Shown here: in pieces, positions 5,974 to 31,100 of the stretch
Numbering within the stretch: position 1 is the stretch's first letter
Layout: each line of letters starts with the position of its first letter
From: a virus
Length of the DNA stretch: 31,100 nucleotides
Reading direction: 5' to 3' (one strand)
Virus record (IMG/VR): IMGVR_UViG_3300040960_001159
Coordinates: 1 to 31,100 of that record
The notes under the pieces: generated by a model
Told to the model about the DNA's origin: nothing
Databases searched by the model: none
Seen by the model: the letters and a program-made list of their open reading frames with translations, nothing else
Translations under genes and position numbers: made by a program

Positions 5974-5984
5974 GATCTGGGAAA

Positions 5985-6245: not shown

Positions 6246-6246
6246 A

Positions 6247-6825: not shown

Positions 6826-6845
6826 AGTATCCACAATTTAAAATG

Positions 6846-6874
6846 ATTATACCGTATTTAGTTTATAGAGTCAA
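6846..6874 (-). promoter_or_regulatory. sigma70-type early promoter of the DUF6433-like gene
   Basis: Minus-strand TTGACT (6874-6869), 17-base spacer, TATAAT (6851-6846). The -35 box is formed by the Leu-Asp-Ser codons near the end of endonuclease B, and the stop codon of that gene lies in the spacer. Confidence 0.83.
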
Positions 6875-7451
6875 GGAGTTTATTTTTTCTTTTTCTTTTA
6901 AGTATTCTATCTCTATTTTTAGCATAATATTCTCTTTCTTTCCTTCTAACTTCTTCTCTATTTTTCTCTCTATACTCTCTTTGCTTTTCATTTATTTTAT
7001 CTCTGTTTTTATCAGCATATTCTTTTTGTCTCTGATTTAAAATTTCTCTTCTATTTGCATTCCTTTCATTTGTTTTTCTATTAAATTCTTCTCTGTTTTC
7101 TTCTCTCCATCTTTTCAATTTTTTAGCAGCGTTTATTTTATTCCTCAATAATGCATTTTCTTTTTCTTTTTTAGTTAAATATTTTCTTGCTCCACCTTTT
7201 CCGCCGTGAACCATATTAACTAAAATTCCACCTTCACATTTTCTTCCATATAAAGCAATCAAATACTGTTCGTGTTTATATGCTTCATCTTCTATTTCAA
7301 AGTTTTTGAGTATTAGTATTTGATTTCTATTTTTTGGTAATAAATTTTGACCATTATTTCTTATGTGTTTCTGATAAGCTCTATCTCCCGATCCCTTTCC
7401 AATGTAATAGGGAGTCCTATCTTCACGCAAATAAGCGTAAGTGTAATACAT
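6858..7451 (-). CDS. free-standing GIY-YIG homing endonuclease B
   Basis: A 197-aa paralogue of the protein at 1237-1839. The N-terminus MYYTYAYLREDRTPYYIGKG has the same YxY...YIG core, and the segment YKHEQYLIALYGRKCEGG is nearly the same as in A. From about residue 100 it becomes a charged repeat rich in N-R-E-K (ADKNRDKINEKQ, REKNREEVRRKE), probably DNA-binding. It lies between a membrane protein gene and a DUF6433-like gene, with a terminator and a perfect late box in front. The first nine coding bases equal those of A, and the leader core is identical over 18 bases, so the leaders share an origin. Confidence 0.88.
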   Translation of the reverse strand: MYYTYAYLREDRTPYYIGKGSGDRAYQKHIRNNGQNLLPKNRNQILILKNFEIEDEAYKHEQYLIALYGRKCEGGILVNMVHGGKGGARKYLTKKEKENALLRNKINAAKKLKRWREENREEFNRKTNERNANRREILNQRQKEYADKNRDKINEKQREYREKNREEVRRKEREYYAKNRDRILKRKRKNKLLDSIN

Positions 7452-12858: not shown

Positions 12859-12881
12859 AAGATAGTCATTCCTATAGTTAA

Positions 12882-14810: not shown

Positions 14811-16438
14811 TTCAGTGCCTCCTCAAGGAATGTGGTCATTGGACTTTGTTTGAACTTTTCAAGTGCTCGAACTGCACTTGCCTCTAGTTCTTCTGGTTTT
14901 TTAAGAAGTCTATAAGTTGTATCTACAAAACGATTATAGGTTGAAAGATTAACCGTATCTTCCATATAATCTGGGAAGTCAGTATCTGGTGCTCTCTCTG
15001 CAAGAATAGGAATACCCTGTTGGAGTGCATGAGAAATTCTCACCATCTCAAAGATCTTATTATCATAGTTATGAATATTAATAATCAACTTTGCTCTTGC
15101 CATCATATTATCTCTTTCTTCTCCATAAGTGCTTTGAAGATTAACAAAGTTAATATTAGGATTATTCTTGAACTGATCCATAATCTTCAGTCGTCTTGGA
15201 CCAGGAGACATATATGCAAGAATATCAATATCTCTCTTCTCAGGTGGTTGGCGTTCCACATAAGAAATCTCAGGAACATATCCAATAGGAACAACCTTAA
15301 TGTTCTCAACACCAGCAAGTTCAAGAGTTTCTTTATTGAAAACAGAATAATCCCAAACTTCTAGACCACGATACTTGCGGCACCAGCGAATACATTCTGG
15401 TGTATCACGCATTTGTTCTAGAGAATAGACAATAGTGTTCTTCGGTACATCGTGCCTCACAATATCTACAGGGCAGTGTTGCATACCAAAGACGATGTTT
15501 CTAGCATCAGGAACAAAGTCATTAATCGTATTTGTGACATCAAAACCCATTCTCTTCAACGTAAAGAAGAATGCTGCTTCAATTTCGTGAAAGACCTGAG
15601 CATGGACATAGTATCCATTATCGGGAACAATACGAACTAGATTAAACTTATCAGACTTTGCCTGAGTAATGTAGTTGTTTAAATTCATCGGTTTTTCTTC
15701 TTTCTTTTCTATAAATTTTTGAACTTCAGCAGACTCAGTATCTCTTACGTCCATATAATGAATTTTTGGATTTTGAGTTCCAACCCAAAGTTCAAATGCA
15801 TATCGGTAGTTTGAAGCACTATTGTTATTATAGTACTCATCTGCATCCAATGGATCACCTAGTTTCTTGATATGATCTGTAGATGCCCACCAAAAGTTTC
15901 CTGCAAAAGGATAAAAATCTTTATAGTAGTTTGCACCTACGCAATCATAACCTTCATCTAGTTTTTCAACACACTCTTTCCATCGTGTTACACAGTGGTG
16001 TTGCATATAACGACGCCACCTATGGTCTTCACCAAAAACTCCCCATGTATTATAGAAGTTCTCGGTCATACCTTTGTTGTGTAAGTATAACACATATCCA
16101 TCAGTTTTCAAAGAGTGCAGATACAACTCCTTGAGTGTTTGACCTTCAAAGATATTTGGTTGCTCACCGACATCACGAACATTTACAATCTCTGCAAATG
16201 GATATCGTTCAGTAATATATTCTAAAACAACTTCACTATAATTCTTTTCAACATAAACTGCACTATTTTTTTTAATCTGTCCTACCAGACCCAAAGGCAT
16301 CGTAATGCAAACTTTGACTTTTGTATTTTCTACTAGACCACTTTTTTGAATGAGACCGAGTTGTTCATCAACCCACCATACCCACATTCCAGATGTATTA
16401 GGAACAAACAGATGGTAAAAAACTGTAAGATTTTTCAT
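14807..16438 (-). CDS. two-domain glycan enzyme: shared RgpF-like domain plus CgeB-like GT-B
   Basis: A 543-aa protein. Residues 1-230 form a domain also present in the next gene upstream (466 aa): NLTVFYHLFVP, WVWWVDEQLGLIQKSGL, FEGQTLKELY, GYVLYLHNKGM at 114-124, and FAGNFWWAS at 178-186. The HNKG and GNFWWA elements recall rhamnan-synthesis (RgpF-type) domains. Residues 260-543 look like a GT-B glycosyltransferase of the CgeB / Glyco_trans_1_2 type (YSLEQMRDTPECIRWC, FEMVRISHALQQGIPILAE). Fold assignments are from motif memory. Coupled by ATGA overlaps at both ends. Confidence 0.65.
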   Translation of the reverse strand: MKNLTVFYHLFVPNTSGMWVWWVDEQLGLIQKSGLVENTKVKVCITMPLGLVGQIKKNSAVYVEKNYSEVVLEYITERYPFAEIVNVRDVGEQPNIFEGQTLKELYLHSLKTDGYVLYLHNKGMTENFYNTWGVFGEDHRWRRYMQHHCVTRWKECVEKLDEGYDCVGANYYKDFYPFAGNFWWASTDHIKKLGDPLDADEYYNNNSASNYRYAFELWVGTQNPKIHYMDVRDTESAEVQKFIEKKEEKPMNLNNYITQAKSDKFNLVRIVPDNGYYVHAQVFHEIEAAFFFTLKRMGFDVTNTINDFVPDARNIVFGMQHCPVDIVRHDVPKNTIVYSLEQMRDTPECIRWCRKYRGLEVWDYSVFNKETLELAGVENIKVVPIGYVPEISYVERQPPEKRDIDILAYMSPGPRRLKIMDQFKNNPNINFVNLQSTYGEERDNMMARAKLIINIHNYDNKIFEMVRISHALQQGIPILAERAPDTDFPDYMEDTVNLSTYNRFVDTTYRLLKKPEELEASAVRALEKFKQSPMTTFLEEALK

Positions 16439-17835
16439 TCTAATACCTTCGCAAATTCTGTTTTAATTTCGTCAATCAGTGTTTGATCTTTTGATACAAC
16501 TCCTAATCCATTTGAGATATGGAAATTAACTTTAGGAAGATCAATTTCACCAAAGAATTTTCTTACACCAAAACCAGGATTATTCACACAAGTGTCGTGG
16601 AAAAGAATAACACCATCTTCTTTCACAAACTTATTCCAAGTTTCATAATCATTCTTGACTGCCTCATAAGTATGAAGTCCATCAATGTGTAAAATATCAA
16701 TTGGTTTATCCCAAGTTTTTGCCACATCATCAAAGTATCCTTTAATGAAAGTGATATGATCAAATCCAAGTTCTTCTTTCTTTTCCTTCACATAATCATA
16801 AGTATCTCGTAGTCCTGCATGATCATCACCTTCAAAACTATCTATACCATAAATCTCACCAATTCTTGGCAGAGCAAAACAGAAAGTTGAATAAGCATAG
16901 TCAACACCAAGATCAACAACAACCTCTGGGTTCTTGCGTCTTACGATCCACTGAGCAAAAGTGATATGGTTCTTCCAGTTGAACTGATTTTTTGCACCAA
17001 CCAAAGTAATGATATGAACTGGATCTTTTGCCTGCTCTTCCATTGAAGGAAGATTAATATACCTTTCTTTAGGATAAAGTTCAAAATAATGATGAGCATT
17101 ACTTTGATGGAAAGAATAATAATTTGAATGATCTGTTTTACATCCGTGACCCATCCATACCTCAAAAGCATAACGATATGTCTTGAGATTCTCCATCATA
17201 TATTTCACATCAGAATACTTCTCCATATCCAACGGATCTGGAAGACTGCGAATATGCTTTGCGGTTGCCCACCAGAAGTTTCCTGCAAAGTGATTGCACA
17301 GGAACTTTTGTTCTTCCGTAAATGTATCCTGATTTAGATTTTCTTCCTTGAGAAGATTGATGCCACAAGCATCATATCCCTCATCAAGTTTTGCAATACA
17401 GTCCTTCCACTTTTCCAAATTAAAATAGTGCATTAATCGTTTCCAGTCACTCAACCCACCAGGAATATGAGTACCATAAGAACTCATTCCTTTATTGTGG
17501 AAGTAGAAAACATAACCATCAAAGGTTTGGCAGTAGTCCCAAAGTTTCTTAATCGTTTGACCTTCAAACCAGTTGGGTTCTTCATGTCTTCCTCGTACAT
17601 CAAGAACATTTACAAAAGGAAAATGATCCTTAATATACTCAATGACCATTTGATCAAAGGTCTTATTATTTTTTTGATTGACCATTCCAAGAGGAAGAGT
17701 GGTGCAAAGAAACACCTCCGCATTCTCTGCAAGTCCAGTGGATTGAAGAAGACCCATTTGTTCTTCAATCCACCAGACCCAAGACTCCATCGGTTCAGGA
17801 ATGAATAGGTGATAAAAGACTGCAAGTTTTTTCAT
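16435..17835 (-). CDS. two-domain glycan enzyme: shared RgpF-like domain plus methyltransferase
   Basis: A 466-aa protein. Residues 1-250 are paralogous to the N-terminus of the 543-aa protein (KLAVFYHLFIP, WVWWIEEQMGLLQSTGL, YFHNKGM at 111-117, FAGNFWWAT at 183-191). Residues 300-466 form a class I SAM-dependent methyltransferase of the Methyltransf_24 type: VVVDLGVDYAYSTF at 305-318, GIDSFEGDDH at 330-339, LHIDGLHTYEAV at 382-393, and ILFHDTCVNNPGFGV. It may methylate a glycan. The start overlaps the upstream GT by one base (TAATG) and the end overlaps the 543-aa gene (ATGA). Confidence 0.75.
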   Translation of the reverse strand: MKKLAVFYHLFIPEPMESWVWWIEEQMGLLQSTGLAENAEVFLCTTLPLGMVNQKNNKTFDQMVIEYIKDHFPFVNVLDVRGRHEEPNWFEGQTIKKLWDYCQTFDGYVFYFHNKGMSSYGTHIPGGLSDWKRLMHYFNLEKWKDCIAKLDEGYDACGINLLKEENLNQDTFTEEQKFLCNHFAGNFWWATAKHIRSLPDPLDMEKYSDVKYMMENLKTYRYAFEVWMGHGCKTDHSNYYSFHQSNAHHYFELYPKERYINLPSMEEQAKDPVHIITLVGAKNQFNWKNHITFAQWIVRRKNPEVVVDLGVDYAYSTFCFALPRIGEIYGIDSFEGDDHAGLRDTYDYVKEKKEELGFDHITFIKGYFDDVAKTWDKPIDILHIDGLHTYEAVKNDYETWNKFVKEDGVILFHDTCVNNPGFGVRKFFGEIDLPKVNFHISNGLGVVSKDQTLIDEIKTEFAKVLE

Positions 17836-18479
17836 TAAATTACCATCGTTTTTGTATGACCAACAATTACAGAAGGATCAACAAAGACCTGATGACCCTT
17901 TGCGGCAACTCTTTCACACCAATCTAGGTCTTCTCCTAGAGGAAGTGTATAAGTTGTTCCGTCAATTTCGTGTTGTACTTTTCCAAGACCAAACCACGGA
18001 CGACCAATATCTTCAAACACACCAGATTTTACACAAACAAAACCAAGACCAACACCATAAACAGGGAAAGTATTGAAGCGATATTTGATTTCCTGTTGCG
18101 CCATCATTCTATAACTATCCTTATGTTCGTGAATGACCGCATCACCATTATGAGACTCAAAATAAACACCAGAAACAACACTCCTATCACTGGAATAGAG
18201 TTTCATAAAGTCTTCTGGTTTCCATACAATATCACTATCAATCATAAACAGTTTATCATATGTAAAATTACCAAGTCCAGGTTCCCTTGATGTTACACAT
18301 ACATTACGACTACCAGCAATAGCAGCCTCTCTCGCATTTGTAACAAGAGAAGAGTGTTCGTTTTGATAGGTCCAGGTAATATTATTCTCTTCTAAAACCT
18401 TAATGGTTGCAAGCAATGACTTAACATAACCAGCAACCAATGAGTTTCCTGGGGTTGCAATCACAACATTGTAATGCAT
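17835..18479 (-). CDS. GT-A type glycosyltransferase, tandem paralogue 2
   Basis: A 214-aa single-domain protein. FMIDSDIVWKPEDF at 78-91 carries the DxD motif, EDLDWCERV near 190 is the second acidic site, and VGHTKTM near the end holds the metal-binding His. It is a clear paralogue of the 240-aa gene just upstream: YDKLFMIDSDI matches YDYIMWIDSDI, KSGVFEDIGRPWFGLGKVQ matches KKGVFESIPYPWFAPKKVQ, and VIVGHTKTMVI matches VRVGHQKMVVL. A short GT-A domain without membrane segments, probably cytoplasmic. TAATG overlaps link it to both neighbours. Confidence 0.82.
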   Translation of the reverse strand: MHYNVVIATPGNSLVAGYVKSLLATIKVLEENNITWTYQNEHSSLVTNAREAAIAGSRNVCVTSREPGLGNFTYDKLFMIDSDIVWKPEDFMKLYSSDRSVVSGVYFESHNGDAVIHEHKDSYRMMAQQEIKYRFNTFPVYGVGLGFVCVKSGVFEDIGRPWFGLGKVQHEIDGTTYTLPLGEDLDWCERVAAKGHQVFVDPSVIVGHTKTMVI

Positions 18480-19201
18480 TACAGAACCACCATCTTTTGA
18501 TGTCCAACACGGACCTTAGGATTACACCAGACCTCAAATCCATACTCCTTGAAGTCCTCACACATCGCAACGTCTTCAGAGCACATATCTTCAAGAATGG
18601 TTCCATCTTCTTTGATGAGTTGAACTTTCTTAGGAGCAAACCAAGGATAAGGAATACTCTCAAATACGCCTTTCTTCATCAGCACCCAACCAAAACCACA
18701 GTAATCTACCTTGAATGGTCCTGGACGACGTGCCATTTCTTCTACGGTCTCAAAGTGATAAGCACCTTTGTTGAGTAGAAGTTGCTTATCCATTTTCTCA
18801 ACCACAGTTGATTGATTGGAAATGGGAGTACCGTTGGACTGAATATACCATCCAGTCGCAATATCCTTATCCATTTTCAGGAGTTCAATCAAGTCTTCTG
18901 TCTTGAAGATAATATCACTATCGATCCACATAATGTAATCATAAGGAATTTGCCCTCGCCAAGGAGTCAGCATTGTTCCTGCAAAATTATCTGCCTGCAA
19001 GCAATCAGTTCTGGCAAAATTTACCATTGAACTATAATGCTGCGAAATATAAAAATTGATTCCCAACTGGTTCAGGTCAAAGACCAGACGGATCATTTGA
19101 GTCATAAAGGTTCCAGAGTACATTGCACCTGGAAGACAAAATGCTATTGTTTTGCCACGAAAATCGTCTTTGGGTTGATTTGTATAGTTCAGTTTCGACA
19201 T
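18479..19201 (-). CDS. GT-A type glycosyltransferase, tandem paralogue 1
   Basis: A 240-aa protein with WIDSDIIFKTEDL at 92-104 (DxD), SEDVAMCEDF near 215 and a C-terminal VGHQKMVVL. The frame is open to 19243, but the extra codons cover the extended -10 promoter at 19224-19232, so I use ATG 19201-19199 (MSKLNYTNQ). No ribosome site is obvious. It is the first gene of the glycan operon running to 7545 and the duplicate of the next gene. Substrate unknown. Confidence 0.82.
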   Translation of the reverse strand: MSKLNYTNQPKDDFRGKTIAFCLPGAMYSGTFMTQMIRLVFDLNQLGINFYISQHYSSMVNFARTDCLQADNFAGTMLTPWRGQIPYDYIMWIDSDIIFKTEDLIELLKMDKDIATGWYIQSNGTPISNQSTVVEKMDKQLLLNKGAYHFETVEEMARRPGPFKVDYCGFGWVLMKKGVFESIPYPWFAPKKVQLIKEDGTILEDMCSEDVAMCEDFKEYGFEVWCNPKVRVGHQKMVVL

Positions 19202-19223
19202 AAAAACAATCAGTTTATGATGT

Positions 19224-19232
19224 ATTATATCA
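19224..19232 (-). promoter_or_regulatory. extended -10 promoter of the glycan operon
   Basis: TGATATAAT on the minus strand, the same extended -10 as before gp59. No good -35 box is visible 17 bases upstream. Expected initiation near 19217, shortly before the first glycosyltransferase. Confidence 0.6.
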
Positions 19233-19246
19233 TATCTATACAAGTT

Positions 19247-22200
19247 TTACCACCAGGTAATTTTAACGTATCCATCACCACCATCACCACCGACTCCAAA
19301 ACGGTTTGTTTCTTGGGAGTATCCACCTCCACCACCTCCACCTCCTCTGGTTCCGTTGCCTCCATTAAATGCGATTGAGACTGTTTCTGCTGATGCTGTT
19401 GCCACACCTCCACCAGAAGAACCCAAAATAATCTTATTATTATCAGCAGATAAAGAATTATATGTTCCCCCATTAAGCAAATATACGTCTGTCCATACAA
19501 TACCATCTGTAGAAGAATTTAAATCTCCCAACCCACCAGCAAAATAAAGATTATTGATGTAGGTGAGAGAATAAATGACTCCTAGACGAGAAGTTCTATA
19601 AGTCCATACAATTGTATCTGTAGAAGTTGTTAGAACTCCACCAACACCACCAGAGGCATAAAGACCATTACCATAAGTAAGAGCATCAATATCCGATGTA
19701 CCAAATCCAGAAGTTCTTTGTTCCCATACAATAGTATCTGTAGAAGTTGTTAGAGTTCCACTATCACCACCAGCAACATAAAGATCATTACCATAAATGA
19801 GAGAACGAATATGTGTTGTACCAAATCCAGAAGTTCTTTGAGTCCATACAATAGTATCTGTAGAAGCTGTTAGTTTTCCACTAAGACCACCAGCAACATA
19901 AAGATTATTAACATAAGTAAGAGTATTAATAGTACCAGTTCCAGAAGTTCTTCGAATCCATACAATAGCATCTGTAGAAGTTGTTAGAGTTCCACTAGTA
20001 CCACCAGCAACATAAAGATTATTACCATAAGTGAGGGAAAAAATTGCTACTGTAAATCCAGAAGTTCTATAAGTCCAAGCAATAGCATCTGTAGAAGTTG
20101 TTAGAGTTCCACCAGAACCACTACCAGCAATATAAAGATCATTTGCAGCAAGAACTACAGTACTAGAATTTGGTAATCCAGCATTTCTCGGATACCAACT
20201 ATTCAATCCTTCACTAATCGCAGAACCTCCTCCACCACCAGAACCATAAGACCCCGTGAGTACTGGGTCGATTCCGTCATTATTTGTTTGGTCATAAATA
20301 TCGAGAGCACTTGAGGTTATTAGAGTTCCACTATTACCAGAAACAACGAAGAAATTATTTCCAAAAGTAGAACTATTAATAGTGTTTGTAGTATTTGAAG
20401 TTCTTGGTGTCCAAACTATTGTATCTGTTGAGGTTCTTATAGTTCCACCAGCACCCCCAGCAATATAAAGATTATTATTATAAGTTAAAGATCTAATTTC
20501 TGATGTACCAAATCCAGAAGTTCTACGAGTCCATACAATACTATCTGTAGAAGTTGTTAGAGTTCCACCTCCACCACCAGCAACATAAAGATTATTAACA
20601 TAGATGAGGGCATGAATTTGTGTCGATACGGTTGAGGTTGTTCTCGCAATCCAAACAATACCATCAGTAGAAACTCTTAGATTTGAAGTATTCCAACCAC
20701 CCAAAACATAAAGACCATTACCATAAGTTAATGCAGTAATTTCAGAAAAACCTCCAGAAGTTCTTTGAGTCCATACAATAGTATCTGTAGAAGTTGCTAC
20801 TCCTAGATTGGTGCCGAAACCACCAGCAGCAACATAAAGATTATTACCATAAGTGAGTTCAGAAATACCTGTATTAGTCGCAGCAAGACTAGAAGTTCTT
20901 TGAGTCCAAACAATAGTATCTGTAGAAGTTGTTAGAGTTCCACCAAAACCACCAGCAACATAAAGATTATTAACATAATTAACAGTAAGTGTACCAAATC
21001 CAGAAGTTCTTGCAACCCACCCAATACTATCAGTTGAAACTCTTATTGTTTCACTATTACCCATATAATACTGAGGAACATCAACATCTTCATCAGTACC
21101 TAGTGCAGTTTCTATCAGTCCAGAATCACCAACCGCAACATAATTATCAGTACCACTAAGGAATAAAGAATTTCCATACAACTTATTATTTCCTCCTATA
21201 ATTTCATTTACATTACTTGAAGTTGTCTTGAACGTATCAGTCCAGGATATACCATCAGTAGAAATTATAATAGTTCCATTATCACCACCAACAGTATAAA
21301 GACCATTTTCATAAGTAATTGTATTAAGATCGATTGTTTCATTGAGACCTGATGTTCTTGCGGTCCAACTGATTGTATCGGTTGATTGTGAGATTGAACC
21401 TTTTGTATCAAAGATTGGTGAGGTTGCTATGATTCCATTCTGTCCAGCGGCAATAAACAAATTCAAACTGGTATTATATTTTAAATCTCTAATATCCGTT
21501 GTTCCAAATCCAGAAGTTCTATAAGTCCATACAATAGTATCTGTAGAAATTCCAATTGTACCAGAACTTGTAGCAACGACATATATTGGATCCTTGTAAT
21601 CAATATCTTTAATATTTTCATTTAGAAATATTGAAGTTCTTAAAGACCATCTAATACCATCAGTTGATGTCGTTATTCTACCATTTTCTGATCCAACGAC
21701 ATAAAGATTATTTCCATATGTTCCGACCATATTCAAACTTGCAGCAGCAATTCCATGTGATCTAAAAGTCCAAACAATAGTATTAGTTGATGTTTGAACT
21801 TGTTGATTACCACCAGTAATCATGTACTTTTCTACTAAATTGGAAGCATATGAAAAACTTCCAACACGAGAATTAGCTTCTAAAGGTGCTAAACAAGTTC
21901 TTGCCGACCATACAATAAGATCAGTAGATGCCCACACCGCCATCTGACCGTTAGTAGAACCCTGCCCACCAATATAGTATAAAGAGTCATCCGAAACATA
22001 TTTAAGAGATTTTGGTCCAAATCCCAAACTAGAAGATACTCCAGAAACCGTTCTTAAAGTCCATATAATACCATCAGTAGAAGTTGAAAACACTCCCAAA
22101 CTAAACATACAAGTATACAAATAATTATTAATATATTCTAAATTTTGAATAAAATTAGAAGTTGTTGAAGTTCTTAGAGTCCAAGTTAGAAAATCTGAAG

Positions 22201-25200
22201 ACACTGCTATTTGACCAGATACACCACCTCTATAATATAAATTGCCATCATAATCAATAGTACTAATAAGTGAAGTAGTACCAGAAGTTCTTTGAGTCCA
22301 TAAAGAACCCTCTAAGTATCCACCACCAACGGCAACATAAGAACTACCATCATAAGCAACACCATTAATATAATCACTTGTGATTGTGGTGGTTCTGGAA
22401 GACCATATGATTCCAGTTGTGGATGTTATGAGTGCTGAGTCGTTATAGAGTTCTGTTGAGGTTGTTAGAGTTCCACTATCACCACCAGCAACAAAGATAT
22501 TATTACCATAAGTGAGAGCACGAACACTCGATGTACCAAATCCAGGATTTCTTTGTTCCCATACAATAGTATCTGTAGAAATTGTTAGAGTTCCACTAGA
22601 ACCACCAGCAACATAAACCTCATTAGCATAAAGAATTTCGAATATTTTTGTTGTACCAAACCCAGAAGTTCTTTTTTCCCATGTAATAGTATCTGTAGAA
22701 ATTGTTAGAGTTCCACTATCACCACCAGCAACATAAAAACCATTACCATAGGTTAGTCCATTAAAATTAATTGCAGTTCCCCCACCAAACCCAGAAGTTC
22801 TTTGTTCCCATACAATTGTATCTGTAGAAGTTGTTAAAGTTCCACTTTGACCACCAGCAACATAAAGATTATTAGCATAAGTAAGAGCAAGAACAGAAGA
22901 TGTACCAAATCCAGAAGTTCTTAATTCCCATACAATAGTATCTGTAGAAGTTATTATAATTCCGCCAGTACCACCAACAATATAAAGATTATTACCATAA
23001 GTGAGAGAACCAATGATTGTGCCAGATAATCCAGAAGTTCTATAAGTCCATACAATCGTATCTGTAGAAATTGTTAAAACTGGATTAGGACCACCACCAG
23101 CAACATAAAGATTATTTCCATAAGTGAAAGAAATAATTGCTGTTGTACCAAATCCAGAAGTTCTTTGAGTCCATACAATACCATTTGTAGAAGTTGTTAG
23201 AGTTCCAGTAAAACCACCAGCAACATAAAGATTATTAACATAAGTGAGACCATAAATTGCAGATGTACCAAATCCAGAAGTTCTTTGAGTCCATAAGTCT
23301 CCAGCAGGTGCATAATCAAGACCACCACCAGCAAGATAAGTTTGTGGAGCATAATCTATAGACTTAATATCATAACCAAAATCTAAACCAGAAGTTCTTC
23401 TAGTCCAGTTGATTTGGTTGGTTGATGTTAAAATGTTTTGATTCTCACCAACGGCAACATAAGGTTGGTTCTTATATCCTGGACGATTATATGCTAGTGA
23501 GGTTGTTAGAGTTCCACTATCACCACCAGCAACATAAAGATTATTACCATAAGTAAGAGCATAAATGTCTGTAGTACCAAATCCAGAAGTTTTATAAATC
23601 CAAACAATAGCATCTGTAGAAGTTGTTAGAGTTCCACTACCACCACCAGCAACATAAAGATTATTCTCATAAGTAAGAGTAAGAATAGTTGTTGAACCAA
23701 ATCCAGAAGTTCTTAATTCCCATACAATAGTATCTGTAGAAGTTGCTAGTTTTCCAATAAAACCACCAGCAACATAAAGATTATTACCATAAGCAAGAGT
23801 AAGAATAGTTGTTGAACCAAATCCAGAAGTTCTACGAGTCCATACAATAGTATCTGTAGAAGTTGTTAGAGTTCCATCAAATACACCACCACCAGCAACA
23901 TAAAGATTATTAGCATAAATTAGAGATTGAATTGCTGTTGAACCAAATCCAGAAGTTCTATATTCCCAAACAATCGTATCTGTAGAAGTTGTTATAGTTC
24001 CAACAAAACCACTAGCAACATAAAGATTATTGCCATAAGTAAGAGTACTTATTGACGTTGAACCAAATCCAGAAGTTCTATAAGTCCATACAATACTATC
24101 TGTAGAAGTTGTTAGAGTTCCACTAGCACTAGCACCACCAGCAACAAAAAGATTATTACCATAAGTGAGAGTACTAATTTGTGTTGCGCCAAATCCAGAA
24201 GTTCTTTGTTCCCATACAATAGTATCTGTAGAAGTTGTTAGAGTTGCACTTTCACCAGCAGCAACATAAAGATTATTAGTATAAGTAATAGAATAAATTG
24301 TTCTTGTACCAAATGTACCAAATCCAGAAGTTCTCAGTACCCATTCACTTCCTGCTTCAATAACACTCTCATAAGGATCAGCAGATATAATTTCGTTAAA
24401 GGTTTCGGTAATACCAGAAGTTCTTAGACTCCAGGAAATAGTATCAGTAGAAGTATCAATCTTACCTGTGGTTCCTGATGCTAAGTATCCTTTGGGACTT
24501 ATTTCGTATGCATAGTCTGGTGAGGTTGTGATAGATAATCCGCCACCGACAACATAAAGATTATTACCATAAACAGCAGATTGTAAATTACTTATTCCAG
24601 CAGTCCTTAAGGTCCAAGAAATTCCATCAGTAGAAATTGATAATCTGTAGTCTTGTGGCCCTGCGTTTCCACCGACAGCAACATAAAAACCACTACCATA
24701 GGAAACAGAAGTAATACTGAAATTTGCACCAGCAATTTTCGTTACTCTAGAAGTCCATACAATCGTATCTGTAGAAGTTCTTAATTTACCTTCACCACCA
24801 GCAACAACATAAAGATTATTAGCATAAAGTAAACTTTTCCATCCATTTAAAACATTATTATCTCCAGAAGTTCTGTAAGTCCATGCAATAGTATCTGTAG
24901 AAATTAGAATTTCACTACCACCAGCAAGAACATAAAGACCATTACCGTAAGTAACATCACCAATAAATCCAGCACCAGAAGTTCTACGAGTCCATGTCTG
25001 TGTATCAGTTGATGTTGATAGAGTTGCACCACCACCAAGAACATAAAGACCATCACCATAAGAAATACCTCTAATTGCGTCATTTCCACCAAAACCAGTA
25101 CTATATCTACGATCCCACGTATAACCATCTGTTGATACAAATAGAATATCAGTACCACCAACAAAGAAAAGATTATTAGCAAATCTAGCAGTAAAAAGTC

Positions 25201-28200
25201 TCTGCGAAGGAGATGAATGAGATACTGTTTTTTCCCATACGATAGAATCGGTAGAAGAAATTATACCTGCGGTTCCAGCAAAAGTAAATCCCGTAGCAAC
25301 ATAAATTCCATTACCAAAAGTAACTTCTTCAATATTACTAATGTCACTAGTAATTCCAGAAGTTCTCAAAGTCCAAATACCTAAATCACCACTAAAATTA
25401 CTATCATCATAAACAAGTTTATCAGTCGCATAATGAGCAGTATTATAAGAACTCTGTGCAGTTCTTAAGGTCCAATTAACAGTATCAGTTGATTGGAGTA
25501 CTTCTGTTCCTACGGCAAGGTATTCTCCAGGAGAAGAAGTAATTGAATTAATATTATTAACTACACTAGAAGTCTTTACTATCCAATTAGTTGCTTTAGG
25601 TATTGTATAAGTATATGGAGGACTATAGGTAAGTGCATTTAGATTGAATGCAGTTCCTGAGGTTCTTAGATTCCATAAAGAACCTTTTGGATATTTTAGA
25701 TACGCTTGTGCGAGTGCTGTATAAGTATTTCCGTAATAATAAGTCGTTGAAGATCCTCCATCATATGACCCATAAGCACCTCCACCTCCAGAAGATACTT
25801 GCATATCAAATTGTTGTGCCACTGAAAATGATTCACCTGCAATACTTCTTCCAGATCCTCCATTAACACTATCAGCAGCATAAAGATAATTACGAGTTGG
25901 ATATGATAAATTAGTAGAAGACCCTCCACCTGTTGTACTAGTATTACTACCTCCACTAGGATTGGAACCAAATGATGCCCTATAATTTATAGTGCCAGTT
26001 GGAGAGTTTCCAGTCCAAGTAACATTTGTAATACCTCCAGAACCTCCACCACCAGCAGAAGAAACACCACCAGCAATCAAGAGATTGTTTCCGTAGGTGA
26101 GAGCATTAATTGTTGAATTTTTAAATAATGAAGTTCTATAAGTCCATACAATTGTATCTGTAGAAGTTGTTAGAGTTCCCCTATCACCACCAGCAATATA
26201 AAGACCATTGCTATAAGTAAGAGAACGAATGAATGTTGTACCAAATCCAGAAGTTCTTTGTTCCCATACAATAGTATCTGTAGAAGTTATTAAAGTTCCA
26301 CCAGCACCACCAGCAAGATAGAGATTATTAACATAAATGAGAGAATTAATTTGTGATGTACCAAATCCAGAAGTTCTTTGAGTCCATACAATCGTATCTG
26401 TAGAAGTTGTGAGAGTTCCACTTTGACCACCAGCAACATAAAGATTATTAGCATAGATAAGAGAATAAATTGTCGATCCACCAAATCCAGAAATTCTTTG
26501 TTTCCATACAATAGTATCTGTAGAAGTTGCTATAGTTCCAATAGCACCACCAGCAACATAAAGATTATTGTTAAAAAGAAGTGTGATGATATTCGTATTT
26601 CCAAATCCAGAAGTTCTTTGAGTCCATACAATAGTATCTGTAGAAGCTGTTAGTTTTCCAAAAGCACCACCAGCAACATAAAGATTATTTCCATAAGTGA
26701 GAGTATAAATTACAGACGTGCTAAGTCCATAAGTTCTACTAGTCCAAGTAATACCATCGGGAGAAGTTGATAGAGTTCCATTAACTAGACCACCACCAGC
26801 AACATAAAGATTATTTCCGTAAGTGAGGGCATAAATTATTGATGTACCAAATCCAGAACCAACTGCTTCCCAAGTTTGACCATCAGTACTAATAGACATT
26901 CCACGACTATTTCCACCAACACCACCAGAACCAACGGTGACTGACATCGTAGAAGCATTTCCAAGTTCTGCTCTGCGAATTAACCAAGAAGCATAAGCAC
27001 CATGACCACCCCCACCACCAGAACCTAATGTTCCAAAGTAGCGTCCTGATGCTCCACCTGCTCCACCACCGATTGCTTCAATATAAAAAGTTTTTGCATA
27101 TGGTGGAATATTGAATGTTGAGTTTCCAGGAGTTGTGAATTCCTCATAACCCTTATATGATAATTGTTCTGGTTGTGGTGATGAAGTATCTGCAAGACTT
27201 TCCCAGTATTGTTGAGTTTCTAGTGATACTGTGATAGTTCCACCTTGACCACCAGCAACATAAAGATTATTAACATAAGTAAGAGCATTAATGATCGATG
27301 AACCAAATTCAGAAGTTCTTTTAGTCCATACAATCGTATCTGTAGAAGTTGTTAGAGTTGCCCCAGAACCACCAGCAACATAAAGATCATTACCATAAAT
27401 GAGAGAACGAATTTGTGATGTACCAAATCCAGAAGTTCTTTGCTCCCATACGATACTATCTGTAGAAGTTGCTAGAGTTCCACTACCACCACCAGCAACA
27501 TAAAGATTATTACCATATGTAAGAGCATAAATTATTGATGAACTAAATCCAGAAGTTCTATAAGTCCATACAATACTATCTGTAGAAGTTGTTAGAGTTC
27601 CACTACCACCAGCAACATAAAGATTATTACCATAGATGAGAGTATTAATGTTTGTACTATCAAATCCAGAAGTTCTTGAAGTCCATGTGTTTCCGTCAGT
27701 AGAAACTGAAATGTTGTCAAAAGGTGTAGCAAAATATAATCCATTAGCATATAAAGTAGCATTAATTCCAGCAGAACCAGTAAAACTAACACTTTTATAA
27801 GTCCAAACAATACCATCAGTGGATACAGTAAATGCAGAATTTTGACCACCAGCGATATATAAACCATTGCCATAACTAATAGTATTAATTTGTGATGTAC
27901 CAAATCCAGAAGTTCTATAAGTCCATACAATACTATCTGTAGAAGTTGCTAGAGTTCCACTACCACCACCAGCAACATAAAGATTATTACCATATGTAAG
28001 AGCATAAATTATTGTTGTACCAAATCCAGAAGTTCTTTGTGCCCATAAAATCGTACCAGGATAAACACTCAAAAACTTTCCAATATCTTGAGTTGATGGA
28101 TCAATTATACGTTTCGCACCATCAACATAACTCTTCGAAGCCGCATCAGTAGATGCTAAAACATCAGTGATTCCTTTTATACTGTGCTTTCTAATCTGCG

Positions 28201-28204
28201 ACAT
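19247..28204 (-). CDS. giant glycine-rich adhesin with nested Asp-box propellers (2985 aa)
   Basis: The N-terminus (residues 1-50) is tail-fibre-like, with ASKSYVDGAKRI. A glycine-rich scaffold begins with EEFTTPGNSTFNIPPYAKTF, runs through islands near 26900-27204, 25690-26070 and 20200-20280, and ends with GGDGGDGYVKITWW. This is the style of poly-glycine receptor-binding tips of T4-like phages. Most of the rest is a ~40-aa repeat of the form W-TxRTSGFGT-x3-LTYGNNLYVAGG-SGTLTTSTDTIV-W. STDTIVW is an Asp-box (S-x-D-x3-W), the turn motif of BNR/sialidase-type propellers. About 55 boxes fall into blocks described separately. No sialidase catalytic residues are seen, so binding or spacing is more likely than catalysis. 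A late box lies upstream. The ribosome site is weak. Confidence 0.82.
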   Translation of the reverse strand: MSQIRKHSIKGITDVLASTDAASKSYVDGAKRIIDPSTQDIGKFLSVYPGTILWAQRTSGFGTTIIYALTYGNNLYVAGGGSGTLATSTDSIVWTYRTSGFGTSQINTISYGNGLYIAGGQNSAFTVSTDGIVWTYKSVSFTGSAGINATLYANGLYFATPFDNISVSTDGNTWTSRTSGFDSTNINTLIYGNNLYVAGGSGTLTTSTDSIVWTYRTSGFSSSIIYALTYGNNLYVAGGGSGTLATSTDSIVWEQRTSGFGTSQIRSLIYGNDLYVAGGSGATLTTSTDTIVWTKRTSEFGSSIINALTYVNNLYVAGGQGGTITVSLETQQYWESLADTSSPQPEQLSYKGYEEFTTPGNSTFNIPPYAKTFYIEAIGGGAGGASGRYFGTLGSGGGGGHGAYASWLIRRAELGNASTMSVTVGSGGVGGNSRGMSISTDGQTWEAVGSGFGTSIIYALTYGNNLYVAGGGLVNGTLSTSPDGITWTSRTYGLSTSVIYTLTYGNNLYVAGGAFGKLTASTDTIVWTQRTSGFGNTNIITLLFNNNLYVAGGAIGTIATSTDTIVWKQRISGFGGSTIYSLIYANNLYVAGGQSGTLTTSTDTIVWTQRTSGFGTSQINSLIYVNNLYLAGGAGGTLITSTDTIVWEQRTSGFGTTFIRSLTYSNGLYIAGGDRGTLTTSTDTIVWTYRTSLFKNSTINALTYGNNLLIAGGVSSAGGGGSGGITNVTWTGNSPTGTINYRASFGSNPSGGSNTSTTGGGSSTNLSYPTRNYLYAADSVNGGSGRSIAGESFSVAQQFDMQVSSGGGGAYGSYDGGSSTTYYYGNTYTALAQAYLKYPKGSLWNLRTSGTAFNLNALTYSPPYTYTIPKATNWIVKTSSVVNNINSITSSPGEYLAVGTEVLQSTDTVNWTLRTAQSSYNTAHYATDKLVYDDSNFSGDLGIWTLRTSGITSDISNIEEVTFGNGIYVATGFTFAGTAGIISSTDSIVWEKTVSHSSPSQRLFTARFANNLFFVGGTDILFVSTDGYTWDRRYSTGFGGNDAIRGISYGDGLYVLGGGATLSTSTDTQTWTRRTSGAGFIGDVTYGNGLYVLAGGSEILISTDTIAWTYRTSGDNNVLNGWKSLLYANNLYVVAGGEGKLRTSTDTIVWTSRVTKIAGANFSITSVSYGSGFYVAVGGNAGPQDYRLSISTDGISWTLRTAGISNLQSAVYGNNLYVVGGGLSITTSPDYAYEISPKGYLASGTTGKIDTSTDTISWSLRTSGITETFNEIISADPYESVIEAGSEWVLRTSGFGTFGTRTIYSITYTNNLYVAAGESATLTTSTDTIVWEQRTSGFGATQISTLTYGNNLFVAGGASASGTLTTSTDSIVWTYRTSGFGSTSISTLTYGNNLYVASGFVGTITTSTDTIVWEYRTSGFGSTAIQSLIYANNLYVAGGGVFDGTLTTSTDTIVWTRRTSGFGSTTILTLAYGNNLYVAGGFIGKLATSTDTIVWELRTSGFGSTTILTLTYENNLYVAGGGSGTLTTSTDAIVWIYKTSGFGTTDIYALTYGNNLYVAGGDSGTLTTSLAYNRPGYKNQPYVAVGENQNILTSTNQINWTRRTSGLDFGYDIKSIDYAPQTYLAGGGLDYAPAGDLWTQRTSGFGTSAIYGLTYVNNLYVAGGFTGTLTTSTNGIVWTQRTSGFGTTAIISFTYGNNLYVAGGGPNPVLTISTDTIVWTYRTSGLSGTIIGSLTYGNNLYIVGGTGGIIITSTDTIVWELRTSGFGTSSVLALTYANNLYVAGGQSGTLTTSTDTIVWEQRTSGFGGGTAINFNGLTYGNGFYVAGGDSGTLTISTDTITWEKRTSGFGTTKIFEILYANEVYVAGGSSGTLTISTDTIVWEQRNPGFGTSSVRALTYGNNIFVAGGDSGTLTTSTELYNDSALITSTTGIIWSSRTTTITSDYINGVAYDGSSYVAVGGGYLEGSLWTQRTSGTTSLISTIDYDGNLYYRGGVSGQIAVSSDFLTWTLRTSTTSNFIQNLEYINNYLYTCMFSLGVFSTSTDGIIWTLRTVSGVSSSLGFGPKSLKYVSDDSLYYIGGQGSTNGQMAVWASTDLIVWSARTCLAPLEANSRVGSFSYASNLVEKYMITGGNQQVQTSTNTIVWTFRSHGIAAASLNMVGTYGNNLYVVGSENGRITTSTDGIRWSLRTSIFLNENIKDIDYKDPIYVVATSSGTIGISTDTIVWTYRTSGFGTTDIRDLKYNTSLNLFIAAGQNGIIATSPIFDTKGSISQSTDTISWTARTSGLNETIDLNTITYENGLYTVGGDNGTIIISTDGISWTDTFKTTSSNVNEIIGGNNKLYGNSLFLSGTDNYVAVGDSGLIETALGTDEDVDVPQYYMGNSETIRVSTDSIGWVARTSGFGTLTVNYVNNLYVAGGFGGTLTTSTDTIVWTQRTSSLAATNTGISELTYGNNLYVAAGGFGTNLGVATSTDTIVWTQRTSGGFSEITALTYGNGLYVLGGWNTSNLRVSTDGIVWIARTTSTVSTQIHALIYVNNLYVAGGGGGTLTTSTDSIVWTRRTSGFGTSEIRSLTYNNNLYIAGGAGGTIRTSTDTIVWTPRTSNTTNTINSSTFGNNFFVVSGNSGTLITSSALDIYDQTNNDGIDPVLTGSYGSGGGGGSAISEGLNSWYPRNAGLPNSSTVVLAANDLYIAGSGSGGTLTTSTDAIAWTYRTSGFTVAIFSLTYGNNLYVAGGTSGTLTTSTDAIVWIRRTSGTGTINTLTYVNNLYVAGGLSGKLTASTDTIVWTQRTSGFGTTHIRSLIYGNDLYVAGGDSGTLTTSTDTIVWEQRTSGFGTSDIDALTYGNGLYASGGVGGVLTTSTDTIVWTYRTSRLGVIYSLTYINNLYFAGGLGDLNSSTDGIVWTDVYLLNGGTYNSLSADNNKIILGSSGGGVATASAETVSIAFNGGNGTRGGGGGGGGYSQETNRFGVGGDGGDGYVKITWW
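19395..20197 (-). repeat. propeller block P8 in the giant adhesin
   Basis: Seven Trp anchors: NSW plus six Asp-boxes. Lies between the scaffold island GSGGGGGSAISEG and the terminal NGGNGTRGGGGGGGG segment. Confidence 0.7.
20310..21055 (-). repeat. propeller block P7 (six anchors)
   Basis: Starts with ETIRVSTDSIGW and has only six Trp anchors, the exception to the seven rule. It follows the apparent closure of the host propeller and precedes the glycine island DPVLTGSYGSGGGGG. Confidence 0.55.
21420..22300 (-). repeat. nested propeller block P6
   Basis: Seven Trp anchors: SLW plus six boxes, more diverged than P4 and P5. Lies between GGYLEGSLW and PIFDTKGSISQST, at the same blade turn as P5. 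Confidence 0.65.
22455..23293 (-). repeat. nested propeller block P5
   Basis: 838 bp with seven Trp anchors: DLW plus six Asp-boxes. Lies between LDYAPAGDLW and TELYNDSALITST, at the turn between the last two strands of a host blade. Confidence 0.7.
23498..24343 (-). repeat. nested propeller block P4
   Basis: Seven Trp anchors: SEW plus six Asp-boxes. Starts after EAGSEW and ends TTS before LAYNRPGYKNQ, where the host blade resumes at PYVAVGE. Units are nearly identical. Confidence 0.7.
24520..25375 (-). repeat. nested propeller block P3
   Basis: Seven Trp anchors: LGIW plus six Asp-boxes. Starts after FSGDLGIW and ends TTS before PDYAYEISPKG, where the host blade resumes at GYLASG. It is more diverged than P4 and P5. 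Confidence 0.65.
26075..26900 (-). repeat. propeller block P2 in the giant adhesin
   Basis: Seven Asp-boxes between the scaffold segments GSGGVGGNSRG and SSAGGGGSGG. Here the permutation differs: the block opens with the Asp-box strand (MSISTDGQTW) and ends after the LLIAGG strand. Confidence 0.7.
27205..28042 (-). repeat. propeller block P1 in the giant adhesin
   Basis: About 838 bp, seven units of 120 bp with seven Trp anchors. It begins right after TILW (residue 54) and ends at QQYW, before the scaffold resumes as ESLADTS. Units are near-identical. Confidence 0.75.
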
Positions 28205-28225
28205 TCTTCAGGACAGTCTTTCTAA

Positions 28226-28233
28226 TATTTATT
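28226..28233 (-). promoter_or_regulatory. late promoter of the giant adhesin
   Basis: AATAAATA on the minus strand, one mismatch from TATAAATA, overlapping the TAA stop of the 904-aa gene. It gives a short leader of about 17 bases before the 2985-aa start. Confidence 0.55.
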
Positions 28234-30946
28234 ACCACCAGGTGATCTTGACATAACCATCTCCACCATTTCCACCGTTTCCAAAAGAAGTTGAATAGAC
28301 GGCACCACCACCTCCACCACCTCCACGAACTCCATTACCTCCAGATCCAATATAAACTGGAGAAACTTCTATAAATCCATCACTACCACCAACCAGTGCA
28401 TATCCATCCCCATAAGTTATACTACGCACAGTCTTTATGACACTACTATTTGAAGTTCTCACAGTCCACGTAATACTATCAGTAGAAATACTGTACCACT
28501 GATCTGTAGCTCCTGCATCTCGACCCGCAATTATAAATCCCGTTGGAGTGACTCCCAAGTTATTATTACCAATACCCCCACTAACATTTCCAGTTGTTCT
28601 GGATATCCATATAACAGTATCTGTTGATGATATCACATCCGCGCCGCCATCAGTCATAACATAGTATCCATTTTGATATCCAAAAGATTTATAACTATCA
28701 ACAGGAGCAGTTCTCTTTATCCATGTAATTGTATCAGTCGAAACTGATGGTGTAGCATTTGGATATGCTATAAAGTAGTATCCATTGGCATAACCAAGAC
28801 CTTCAATGGGTTCAGTTATAGAAACGCCAGTCGTTCTTTTAGTCCAGTGTGCAGCATCAGTGGATACTGCAAGAAATGCATTATCCCCAGATATAATAAA
28901 TTGATTATCATCATAAATTGCTTGCCTAACAATATCAGTAAATCCAGCAGTTCTCAATATCCATACAGTAGAGTTGGTAGAAGTTGATACATATCCATTT
29001 GGTCCACCAGCAGCTAAGAAAAATTCTGGAGATTTTGTAAGTCCATATATGTTAAAGTTTCCACCCTCATCTTGTTGTTCCCATACGATAGTGTCAGTAG
29101 AAGAAAGTATAAAATTTTGAGAACCAAGAATATAATATCCATTACCAATAACACTAGAATAAAAAGAAGCATTAAGAGATTTTCCACTTGTTCTTAAAGT
29201 CCACGAATATCCTGCAGATATTGATCCCCCACCACCTCCTCCACCATAAGGAAGTCCAGATATGAGAGTTGCATTCTGTCCTGTGAGAGTTGCAGTATCA
29301 GCACCAATACCACCAGAAGCAGAAATAGAGTTTCCATAATAACTTATAGATCCTCCAGATCCTCCTGTTCCAGAATCTACGGCACCACTTCCTCCTCCTG
29401 TTGGTTGGAATTGATTTGTTTGTGAAGTTCCATCATTTCCAGAAGAAGATGAAATGTATTGTACTATTGCACCATCAGAACCAGCAGTTGTATAAAAAGA
29501 ACTACTACTTGATACAGTGTTTGCTGCTGTTGATGATGCAGTAATTGTATATGTTTGTGCATTTGGACCAGTCCAAGATATTGTCGTATCAGATCCAGCA
29601 CTTCCCAATTCACTATCAGTTGTTCCACCAGTTCCACCTGCTCCAGGATTAACTGTAAGATTAGAATAAACAATATTTCTTGGTATATACCAGGAAGTAT
29701 AAGCACCTGCGGATCCACCCTTTCCAGAAAATACAGAAGGACTAATAGTGCCATATGCATATACTGCATTATTTAAATACTTTATATCTTCTACTGTTTT
29801 ATTAATACCAATGTTTTTTTCTTCCCAGACAATAGTATCTGTTGATCTAATTATTCTTCCTTCCCCACCACCAACAAAATAATACCCACCACCATAAGAA
29901 ATAGAATATAAGTTTTTCCCCTCTTGACCAGAAGTTCTTAATTCCCATGTCTGAGCATCAGTCGATGTTGCAATTCTTCCTGCGCCAGTTGACCAGGAAC
30001 AAACGACATAAAGATTATTCCCATAAAAAATATCAGTTACGGTTGCTCCTGTTAAACCATAATTTGTTTGTACCCAATGAATAGTATCTGTTGAAACACG
30101 ATTTGCTGATGCAGATCCAGAAATATAATATTTTGAACCATCATATGTAGATCCGTACATTTGAAAACCAGTTCCAGAAGTTCTTAGTTCCCATACAATA
30201 CAATCGGTAGATGCTTGTATTCTTCCAGCATTATCTCCAATAATAAAATATCCACCACCATAATTAAAAGTCCATCTTGGAGTAAATCCAGTATTAATAG
30301 CAGTACGCAAAGTCCAAACAATACTATCAGTAGAACTTGCCGCATATACCGCATTATTTGCATCCATAACCAAATAAAATTGATTATTAACCGCAATCAA
30401 TGATTGAATTCTTTCATTAAATCCAGAAGTTCTCAAAGTCCAGTTAATAGTATCTGTAGAAACTATTATTCCATAATTGCTAGTAATGTCATCACCCATA
30501 ACATATAATCCATTCGCATAAGCAGTTGGTCCTCTTATCCCAAACGGAGTATTTGGTACTATCCAATCACTTCCAAAAATACTACTCGTAATTAACCCCG
30601 TTGCTCCTGCACCACCACCAGCACCAGCACCAACTGCCTCAATATACAGAAGATTTGCCTGTGGTGGGAGTGTAAATGTTTGTGCTCCTGGAGTTGTGAA
30701 TTCTTCAATATTAGAAACATAATCCCAAGTGTTGGCAATTCCATCAGTTGTAGTTAAAAACTTACCTTCATCTTGTGGTGCGATATCTGGATAAATGAGT
30801 GTCTTATCAACATAAGATTTACTTGCTACATCACCACCATCAATGACCGTTACGATTCCACTAATCCTATCATTATAAAATACAAGTCCCGATCTTGTGG
30901 TTGTTGATACTCCACTATTGGTATTAATTGTTTGTTTTACTGACAT
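28232..30946 (-). CDS. glycine-rich adhesin with two Asp-box propellers (904 aa)
   Basis: Paralogue of the giant protein. The N-terminus carries VASKSYVDKTLIYPD and GKFLTTTDGIANTW, then the scaffold starts EEFTTPGAQTFTLPPQANLL, continues through GKGGSAGAYTSWYIPRNI and several glycine runs, and ends GGNGGDGYVKITWW. Two blocks of Asp-box repeats (boxes such as STDTINW, STDCIVW, STDAQTW) are inserted in glycine loops. The repeats are more diverged than in the giant protein. Length and ends suggest a tail-fibre tip or accessory receptor-binding protein. The ribosome site GGAG overlaps the stop of the preceding adhesin, so the two are co-translated; no separate late box is seen. Confidence 0.8.
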   Translation of the reverse strand: MSVKQTINTNSGVSTTTRSGLVFYNDRISGIVTVIDGGDVASKSYVDKTLIYPDIAPQDEGKFLTTTDGIANTWDYVSNIEEFTTPGAQTFTLPPQANLLYIEAVGAGAGGGAGATGLITSSIFGSDWIVPNTPFGIRGPTAYANGLYVMGDDITSNYGIIVSTDTINWTLRTSGFNERIQSLIAVNNQFYLVMDANNAVYAASSTDSIVWTLRTAINTGFTPRWTFNYGGGYFIIGDNAGRIQASTDCIVWELRTSGTGFQMYGSTYDGSKYYISGSASANRVSTDTIHWVQTNYGLTGATVTDIFYGNNLYVVCSWSTGAGRIATSTDAQTWELRTSGQEGKNLYSISYGGGYYFVGGGEGRIIRSTDTIVWEEKNIGINKTVEDIKYLNNAVYAYGTISPSVFSGKGGSAGAYTSWYIPRNIVYSNLTVNPGAGGTGGTTDSELGSAGSDTTISWTGPNAQTYTITASSTAANTVSSSSSFYTTAGSDGAIVQYISSSSGNDGTSQTNQFQPTGGGSGAVDSGTGGSGGSISYYGNSISASGGIGADTATLTGQNATLISGLPYGGGGGGGSISAGYSWTLRTSGKSLNASFYSSVIGNGYYILGSQNFILSSTDTIVWEQQDEGGNFNIYGLTKSPEFFLAAGGPNGYVSTSTNSTVWILRTAGFTDIVRQAIYDDNQFIISGDNAFLAVSTDAAHWTKRTTGVSITEPIEGLGYANGYYFIAYPNATPSVSTDTITWIKRTAPVDSYKSFGYQNGYYVMTDGGADVISSTDTVIWISRTTGNVSGGIGNNNLGVTPTGFIIAGRDAGATDQWYSISTDSITWTVRTSNSSVIKTVRSITYGDGYALVGGSDGFIEVSPVYIGSGGNGVRGGGGGGGAVYSTSFGNGGNGGDGYVKITWW
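28365..29203 (-). repeat. propeller block B in the 904-aa adhesin
   Basis: 838 bp with seven Trp anchors: YSW plus six Asp-boxes. It lies between the scaffold runs GGGGGGSISAG and GSGGNGVRGGGGGGG. Confidence 0.7.
29735..30565 (-). repeat. propeller block A in the 904-aa adhesin
   Basis: About 830 bp with seven Trp anchors: SDW plus six Asp-boxes. It interrupts the glycine-rich scaffold between GAGATG and GKGGSAGAY. Confidence 0.7.
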
Positions 30947-30958: not shown

Positions 30959-31100
30959 CTACCACCAAGTGATTTTGACATATCCATCACCACCGTTCCC
31001 TCCTTCTCCTGCGAGTTCGGTTCCTGTTGTAGTATCTAGGAGATATCCACCTCCACCACCTCCACCACCTCTGGATCCGTCTCCACCTCTTCCTGCGATT
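30959..31100 (-). CDS. C-terminus of a third glycine-rich adhesin (cut by window edge)
   Basis: Forty-six codons and a TAG stop are visible. They read IAGRGGDGSRGGGGGGGGYL, then a short polar loop, then GGNGGDGYVKITWW, the same ending as the two adhesins downstream. This shows at least three tandem paralogues. Whether it also carries Asp-box blocks cannot be seen; the last 46 residues contain none. Confidence 0.85.
   Translation of the reverse strand, partial: IAGRGGDGSRGGGGGGGGYLLDTTTGTELAGEGGNGGDGYVKITWW

Follow-up and report, generated by a model that had tools for sequence, protein, structure and literature searches.

Beta-propellers built from Asp-box units are known from sialidases, GH74 enzymes and the Vps10 domain, in which, as in the phage proteins described here, an SxDxGxTW-like motif occurs once per 40-aa unit. 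The available portion of a survey of these folds (Quistgaard and Thirup 2009, PMC2716378) describes 5-, 6-, 7- and 10-bladed forms, alone or in tandem, with tandem propellers in GH74 among the seven-bladed ones, and reports that solved structures have a conserved bottom face and a variable top face, the latter being the sole face used functionally. No propeller is seen inside the blade of another in that portion, whereas the adhesins analyzed here are read as nested. Recently amplified propellers, the Asp-box group included, carry near-identical blades amplified in frame and form a continuum of consecutive blade numbers from 2 to 47, where an array of 15 is predicted to divide as 7 + 8 (Pereira and Lupas 2022, PMC9218822). 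In the present proteins, by contrast, nearly every closed set has seven units and the sets are nested; the words 'nested', 'inserted' and 'insertion' are absent from the text of PMC9218822. Glycine-rich motifs are shared with S16 gp38 (PMC6851490) and with gp24 of the fibre of cyanophage Pam3 (PMC9608196), whose variable distal loops are the proposed receptor binders in the available sections of both reports; those loops are short, whereas the loops of window-type adhesins carry whole propellers. Insertion of a domain into a propeller is also seen with the integrin alpha-I domain. In proteins of the DDB1 type, propellers are interleaved in one chain. Both systems have one level and unlike domains or a fixed arrangement, in contrast to the phage adhesins, in which a domain appears inserted in itself, up to four levels deep and with variable occupancy. 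Seven-bladed Asp-box propellers, amplified blades and domain insertions are already known. Propellers nested in propellers in a phage were not found in the literature searched, mostly by titles and abstract beginnings, nor was four-level propeller nesting with the number kept at each level, and there is a real chance that the recursive architecture is more than a variant of these known forms.

Here, we analyzed a 31,100-base IMG/VR virus record (the window), whose large genes lie on the minus strand and include those for the adhesin P0001 and its paralogue P0002 (Table 1). With a probability of roughly 0.8, we propose that these are tree-like adhesins in which closed seven-bladed Asp-box modules are inserted in a Gly_rich_2 core and in each other, the ring fold and the receptor role being predicted from sequence. 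Because psbA/psbD-family genes (PF00124) occur in 11 of 19 records of related loci and the window PhoH (3049-3807) is 86.9% identical to PhoH of Synechococcus phage S-SRM01, the phages carrying these adhesins can be assigned to the cyanophages. At G001:C1:78188-79757 and G018:C1:36722-38242, the psbA-family match is split near model position 140-145, with stops in the match of the first half; the single site in two records suggests an intron or insertion.

The window ends within the C-terminal part of a third adhesin gene (30962-31093, minus strand), which is 74% identical to the P0002 C-terminus and cut by the end of the record. Downstream of the adhesins lies a row of seven genes (8225-19243, minus strand), several of them glycosyltransferase-like (Pfam GT17, GT2 and GT1 groups). 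Two small minus-strand ORFs (1237-1839 and 6858-7451) resemble each other and, by eye, look like GIY-YIG homing endonucleases. Upstream of the adhesins in the relatives L017 and L066 are genes for tail fibres that carry a Peptidase_S74 chaperone, and the L017 fibre (4849-7245) itself matches PF10282, a seven-bladed lactonase-type propeller family.

Asp-box units and blocks in the window adhesins

Units in P0001 and P0002 were counted by W-to-W splitting combined with an HMM of the 40-aa unit, and one Asp-box-like motif was found per repeat of ~40 aa. The original prediction of seven units in each of the blocks P1-P6 and P8 of P0001 and A and B of P0002 held under this count, with the first unit of block A recognized by eye. 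That unit (W128) is divergent and matches the HMM only partially, and the automatic parser counts six units there; the seventh is visible by eye, and W128 is invariant in its column of alignment A4. The expected block length of ~838 bp is a fair centre of a real scatter from 804 to 882 bp, with P7 (W2396-W2598) at 708 bp. Most blocks begin at a Trp without an Asp-box and end after a strand C without one, in agreement with the proposed opening in mid-unit after a Trp and ending before the next Asp-box. This does not apply to P2, which has an extra C strand and Asp-box at its start and a last unit that stops after strand B. Closed sets of seven, made of six linked units and one built from the two ends, were likewise borne out at the sequence level. 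Free variation of repeat numbers under a profile, named beforehand as the outcome that would count against a fixed number, did not occur.

The six units of P7 were counted correctly, yet P7 is not a real exception to seven, as it is what remains of a propeller, L0, when the first blade is left out. Between P3, P4, P5, P6 and P7 lie Asp-box units cut in two, which were missed in the original prediction. According to the unit HMM, residues 1258-1275 cover model positions 1-19 and are complemented by residues 1577-1599, after P4, which cover 18-40; residues 1934-1964 (1-32) are similarly complemented by residues 2267-2278 after P6 (28-39), and the partial unit 1600-1628 covers 1-28, with its C strand returning only after P5. 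For the nested reading, each Trp-to-Trp segment was scored as LINK (an intact unit), OPEN (a unit that breaks off) or END+CLOSE (the final unit of a ring and, after it, the strands that the interrupted blade still lacks). When every segment of P0001 was given its own best label, a balanced bracket string resulted, in which all nine propellers had seven units. L0 comprises W844, W2396, W2433, W2478, W2518, W2558 and W2598, its W844 first blade lying ~4.6 kb from the rest, cut off by inserted propellers. Inside L0 blade 1 sits L1 (W874, W911, W1258, W1600, W1934, W2280 and W2321), of which blades 2, 3, 4 and 5 harbor P3, P4, P5 and P6, respectively. P1, P2, P8 and L0 are the core-level propellers.

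Table 1. Positions of the adhesin genes and their predicted propeller parts in the window
Feature	Positions	Strand	Trp span	Block length (bp)	Evidence or remark
Adhesin P0001, 2985 aa	19247..28204	-			nine predicted seven-unit propellers
Paralogue P0002, 904 aa	28232..30946	-			two predicted seven-unit propellers (A, B)
P0002 block A, seven units, first divergent (W128)	29738..30565	-	W128-W374	828	W-splitting, unit HMM, alignment A4
P0002 block B, seven units	28361..29203	-	W582-W827	843	equivalent site empty in L017, L019, L020
P1, seven units, aa 54-327, N-terminal linker site	27224..28045	-	W54-W293	822	site empty in L019 and L038
P2, seven units, aa 435-715, glycine-rich loop	26060..26902	-	W445-W687	843	closure: C and D strands from N end, A and B from C end
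L0 first blade (D, A strands, W844), cut by L1 insertion	25586..25675	-			OPEN 21.5 vs LINK 6.3 bits
L1 blade 1 and start of blade 2 (W874, W911)	25376..25585	-			unit HMM, segment scores
P3, seven units, in L1 blade 2	24527..25375	-	W944-W1197	849	unit HMM, bracket parse
L1 end of blade 2 and start of blade 3 (W1258)	24344..24526	-			unit HMM, segment scores
P4, seven units, in L1 blade 3	23498..24343	-	W1288-W1535	846	unit HMM, bracket parse
L1 end of blade 3 and start of blade 4 (W1600)	23294..23497	-			unit HMM, segment scores
P5, seven units, in L1 blade 4	22454..23293	-	W1638-W1882	840	unit HMM, bracket parse
L1 end of blade 4 and start of blade 5 (W1934)	22301..22453	-			unit HMM, segment scores
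P6, seven units, in L1 blade 5	21419..22300	-	W1969-W2226	882	unit HMM, bracket parse
L1 end of blade 5, blade 6 (W2280), closing blade 7 (W2321)	21092..21418	-			unit HMM, segment scores
Rest of L0: re-entry strands and six units (P7)	20312..21091	-			unit HMM, segment scores
P8, seven units, last glycine-rich loop	19394..20197	-	W2670-W2904	804	unit HMM

Unit numbers in related adhesins

Scans of IMG/VR, with contained copies removed, yielded 45 complete adhesins, of which 44 have units and one has none; metagenome assemblies such as these may collapse repeats. Seven units were found in 138 of 144 propellers of the 44 adhesins by a bracket grammar without preset count (linker -8), whose tokeniser and linker constant were tuned on the same 44 proteins. 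The share was 135/149 at linker values of -4 and -6, 134/142 at -10 and -12, and 113/133 at -15. The six misses at -8 comprise window block A, where W128 was not tokenised, L015_+3726, where the first Trp is Phe, two propellers of L016_+9977 affected by a single missed Trp, and two of L041_+11573, which have seven units at -6. L041_+11573 was read at -6 in the shuffle and length-fit, insertion-site, divergence, and 90%-collapse and period analyses, as it misparses at -8; L016_+9977 was set by hand to two propellers in the length fit, omitted from the insertion-site count and redundant in the 90% collapse. After collapsing at 90% identity (43 proteins, L041 at -6), seven units remained in 137 of 139 propellers, the sixes being window block A and L015_+3726. 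Two earlier parsers, one based on regular expressions and length (104/152 at seven, threshold 52, summed from printed counts) and one a profile parser (129/149 at seven, Viterbi), were replaced. Their errors concerned interior Trp, host Trp and W-to-F changes, and the fixes were general rules made after inspection of these data.

Contiguous runs alone vary from 1 to 7 units. In nested regions, by comparison, 31 of 32 hosting propellers, several of which are orthologous and thus not independent, have seven, versus a mean of 7.6% and a maximum of 24% in 2000 label shuffles under balance. The parser does not impose this number, since it recovered the correct count in 119 of 120 synthetic arrays assembled from 4-12 real units. 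Among 145 propellers, 97 are at nesting level one, 29 at level two, 14 at level three and 5 at level four, and the longest adhesin (L017_+11816, 3589 aa) is parsed into 11 propellers, all with seven units.

In contigs outside the tuning (L096, L097 and L104), seven units were read in 12 of 17 entries automatically and in 16 of 17 by hand, the manual corrections concerning a host Trp taken for a unit, an OPEN segment labelled LINK and a ring interrupted by a frame break. The sole six that reading does not explain, propeller Q, lies on a 1714-aa piece of a gene that is frame-broken in both records. This gene is a giant type-3 adhesin at L104 (116-5257 and 5344-13521), split by a frame change in two records (G001 and G002). 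Other phage proteins, with different cores (L093 758-3166, L102 2-1516 and L090 1492-5004), were also observed to carry just one block each, of about six or seven Asp-box units. A profile search of genome contigs with alignment A2 retrieved no relative, and a phage database search matched P0002 only at 30% identity and retrieved no match for the propeller-free protein or the giant gene of L041.

Core, insertion sites and exchange of whole propellers

Protein length follows 298.9 + 300.7 n aa in the 45 proteins (r2 0.9992, residual s.d. 20 aa, maximum 59). The best length period is 301 aa (R 0.915 vs 0.50 at the 99.9th percentile of uniform lengths), and the 11 proteins >1250 aa alone give R 0.81 (P 0.0004). 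The n = 0 member (L023 174-1124, 317 aa) matches Gly_rich_2 (PF21722) over 1-225/226 with 30.9 bits and also matches minor-tail-protein PHROGs. Scores for Gly_rich_2 are 25.4 bits in P0002 (curated cut-off 24.3), 26.4 bits in L009 type 3 and 21.4 bits, below the cut-off, in a single-propeller protein of L017; the Pfam search gave no Gly_rich_2 match for P0001 itself. A phmmer comparison of the propeller-free relative with solved glycine-rich adhesins yielded only a glycine-linker match. From the length ladder and the Gly_rich_2 match of the n = 0 member, the core is predicted to be a Gly_rich_2 tail domain that has propellers in its loops and the preceding linker.

The position at which a blade is left was at least 25 in the unit model in 44 of 47 nested insertions, and that of the return at least 26 in 43 of 47, i.e., the B-C loop; the window protein uses the A-B loop as well. 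As the Asp-box turn is the C-D loop, the B-C loop would lie on the opposite face. A full Asp-box before the first Trp is present in 17 propellers, all at the P2 site, 16 of which lack a last-unit C-strand gain >3 bits, whereas 101 of the other 124 propellers have this gain (sorted by eye). The complementary ends at the P2 site are one event, because it is one homologous site.

In alignments, the type 2 site B is filled in P0002 and empty in three relatives, and the type-3 P1 site is unoccupied in L019 (Table 1). The type-3 genes of L037 and L038 are 92.4% identical over 4572 aligned bases, with L038 lacking the pair at the P1 site and the propeller at the P2 site. At the P8 site, one branching pattern is common to L037 and L038 and its base pattern is found in L017 too; at the tip of the branch, L043 has one additional propeller and L041 has two. 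The quantity that varies between phages is thus whole sets and not single units, as foreseen. Their arrangement as separate packets in a row was not borne out, since several sets sit inside the blades of others. At the level of sequence, one predicted propeller of ~300 codons is shown to be the unit of gain, loss and copying.

Recent copying of whole propellers is observed in relatives (L047, L023 and L037) and is claimed for these only, because most pairs of window propellers, compared unit by unit, are without register. Copies at different sites are in register in L047 (184/573; 0.83 in register, 0.38 out of register) and L023 (89/1077; 0.81 and 0.37), and in both the homology falls near the propeller edges. 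Across all 280 within-protein pairs, the in-register excess is small (0.427 vs 0.404), with a best shift of 0 in 87 pairs and 40 expected if the seven shifts were alike. In amplified propellers of the window, units resemble one another without register. Two processes therefore seem to be at work: whole propellers are copied, and the blades of a propeller are homogenised among themselves, while the number stays at seven. Divergence was compared in four nested type-2 orthologues (five pairs, excluding the close pair L037/L038): identity is 0.83-0.90 in the core, 0.56-0.77 in the outer propeller and 0.36-0.39 in the inner propeller, the last being no higher than among out-of-register units (0.40). 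Given this difference from the core, the inner propellers may be swapped or fast-diverging, which fits the expectation for receptor-binding tips.

Fold, alternative readings and biological meaning

The propeller fold is predicted on the basis of the Asp-box pattern, Pfam Kelch motifs that match single blocks, sequence matches to solved designed proteins (Tako8, Ika8 and Ika4) and the bracket evidence. We take these designed proteins to be WD40-like propellers. AlphaFold2 models reached a pLDDT of only 34 for P0002 (10 sequences) and 40 for the L037 nested pair (4 sequences), and a Foldseek search with the latter low-confidence model gave no match at E <= 0.001. The mixed alignment A3 was excluded from folding, as its rows with only one propeller are misaligned into the inner one. 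AlphaFold2 can fail on highly symmetric propellers (PMC9218822).

It is conceivable that P1-P8 are separate tandem propellers and that what lies between them is decayed half-blades or linkers that do not fold independently. These pieces are indeed more divergent than the blocks (mean unit identity of 0.32 within L1 vs 0.66 within P4), and AlphaFold2 gave the outer ring of the L037 nested pair no support. Decay, however, should not yield balanced halves that sum to seven, nor the excess of seven-unit hosts over shuffled labels when contiguous runs alone vary so widely, and most of the 47 insertions exit and re-enter the blade at one loop, with the interrupted blade kept in four orthologues. We therefore regard a simple tandem array as improbable. 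A beta-solenoid or very large ring, with seven as a by-product of one duplicated ancestral block, is more improbable still. Common ancestry of blocks would copy the number, and autotransporter beta-helices are among the weak Foldseek matches of the low-confidence model. The solved relatives and Kelch motifs matched nevertheless point to propellers, and the register-free likeness of units in amplified window propellers suggests homogenisation at the level of blades, with seven kept nonetheless.

Selection on closure might also be dispensable if recombination between near-identical blades or linkers simply moved sets of seven. Such a mechanism would leave the same pattern as selection, and the in-register copies with homology falling near propeller edges speak in its favour. 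Recombination between near-identical 40-aa units, on the other hand, should often give six or eight, whereas single-unit in-frame changes are almost absent and the one apparent six lies in a frame-broken gene. We consider this purely mutational account unlikely, albeit the least so of the three.

Under the tree-like reading, both window genes would specify adhesins of the tail of a T4-like cyanophage. Closed seven-bladed Asp-box beta-propellers would be inserted whole in the loops of a glycine-rich core of ~300 aa. A propeller could in turn take up other whole propellers, mostly in a B-C loop of one of its blades, and the protein would thereby grow as a tree. In the window, the core would hold P1, P2, P8 and L0, L0 would hold L1, and L1 would hold P3, P4, P5 and P6. 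Seven would be retained because sets with more or fewer units would fail to close. The outermost propellers may serve as receptor-binding tips, probably for cyanobacterial surface sugars, and would be the parts most readily exchanged, as suggested by their faster divergence in one orthologue set. It is intriguing, and in our judgment fairly probable, that the adhesin is a self-similar protein in the wider sense, i.e., that a seven-bladed Asp-box propeller was inserted into its own copies according to a fixed rule, with entry at the loop of a blade, completion of seven blades and exit at that loop, giving 0 to 11 propellers on up to four levels with the outermost exchanged as receptor-binding heads.

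If true, recursive nesting of a protein domain in itself is compatible with its being encoded, folded and exchanged, a point relevant to ring closure in chains that other rings interrupt. Since the blades look homogenised and seven is kept, the family is also a natural system in which to test whether folding or history sets the number of blades. For freshwater cyanophages, the architecture would be a modular way to add or swap putative receptor-binding heads, visible as steps of ~300 codons between close relatives, and a new means by which a virus could enlarge and exchange the surfaces with which it grips.
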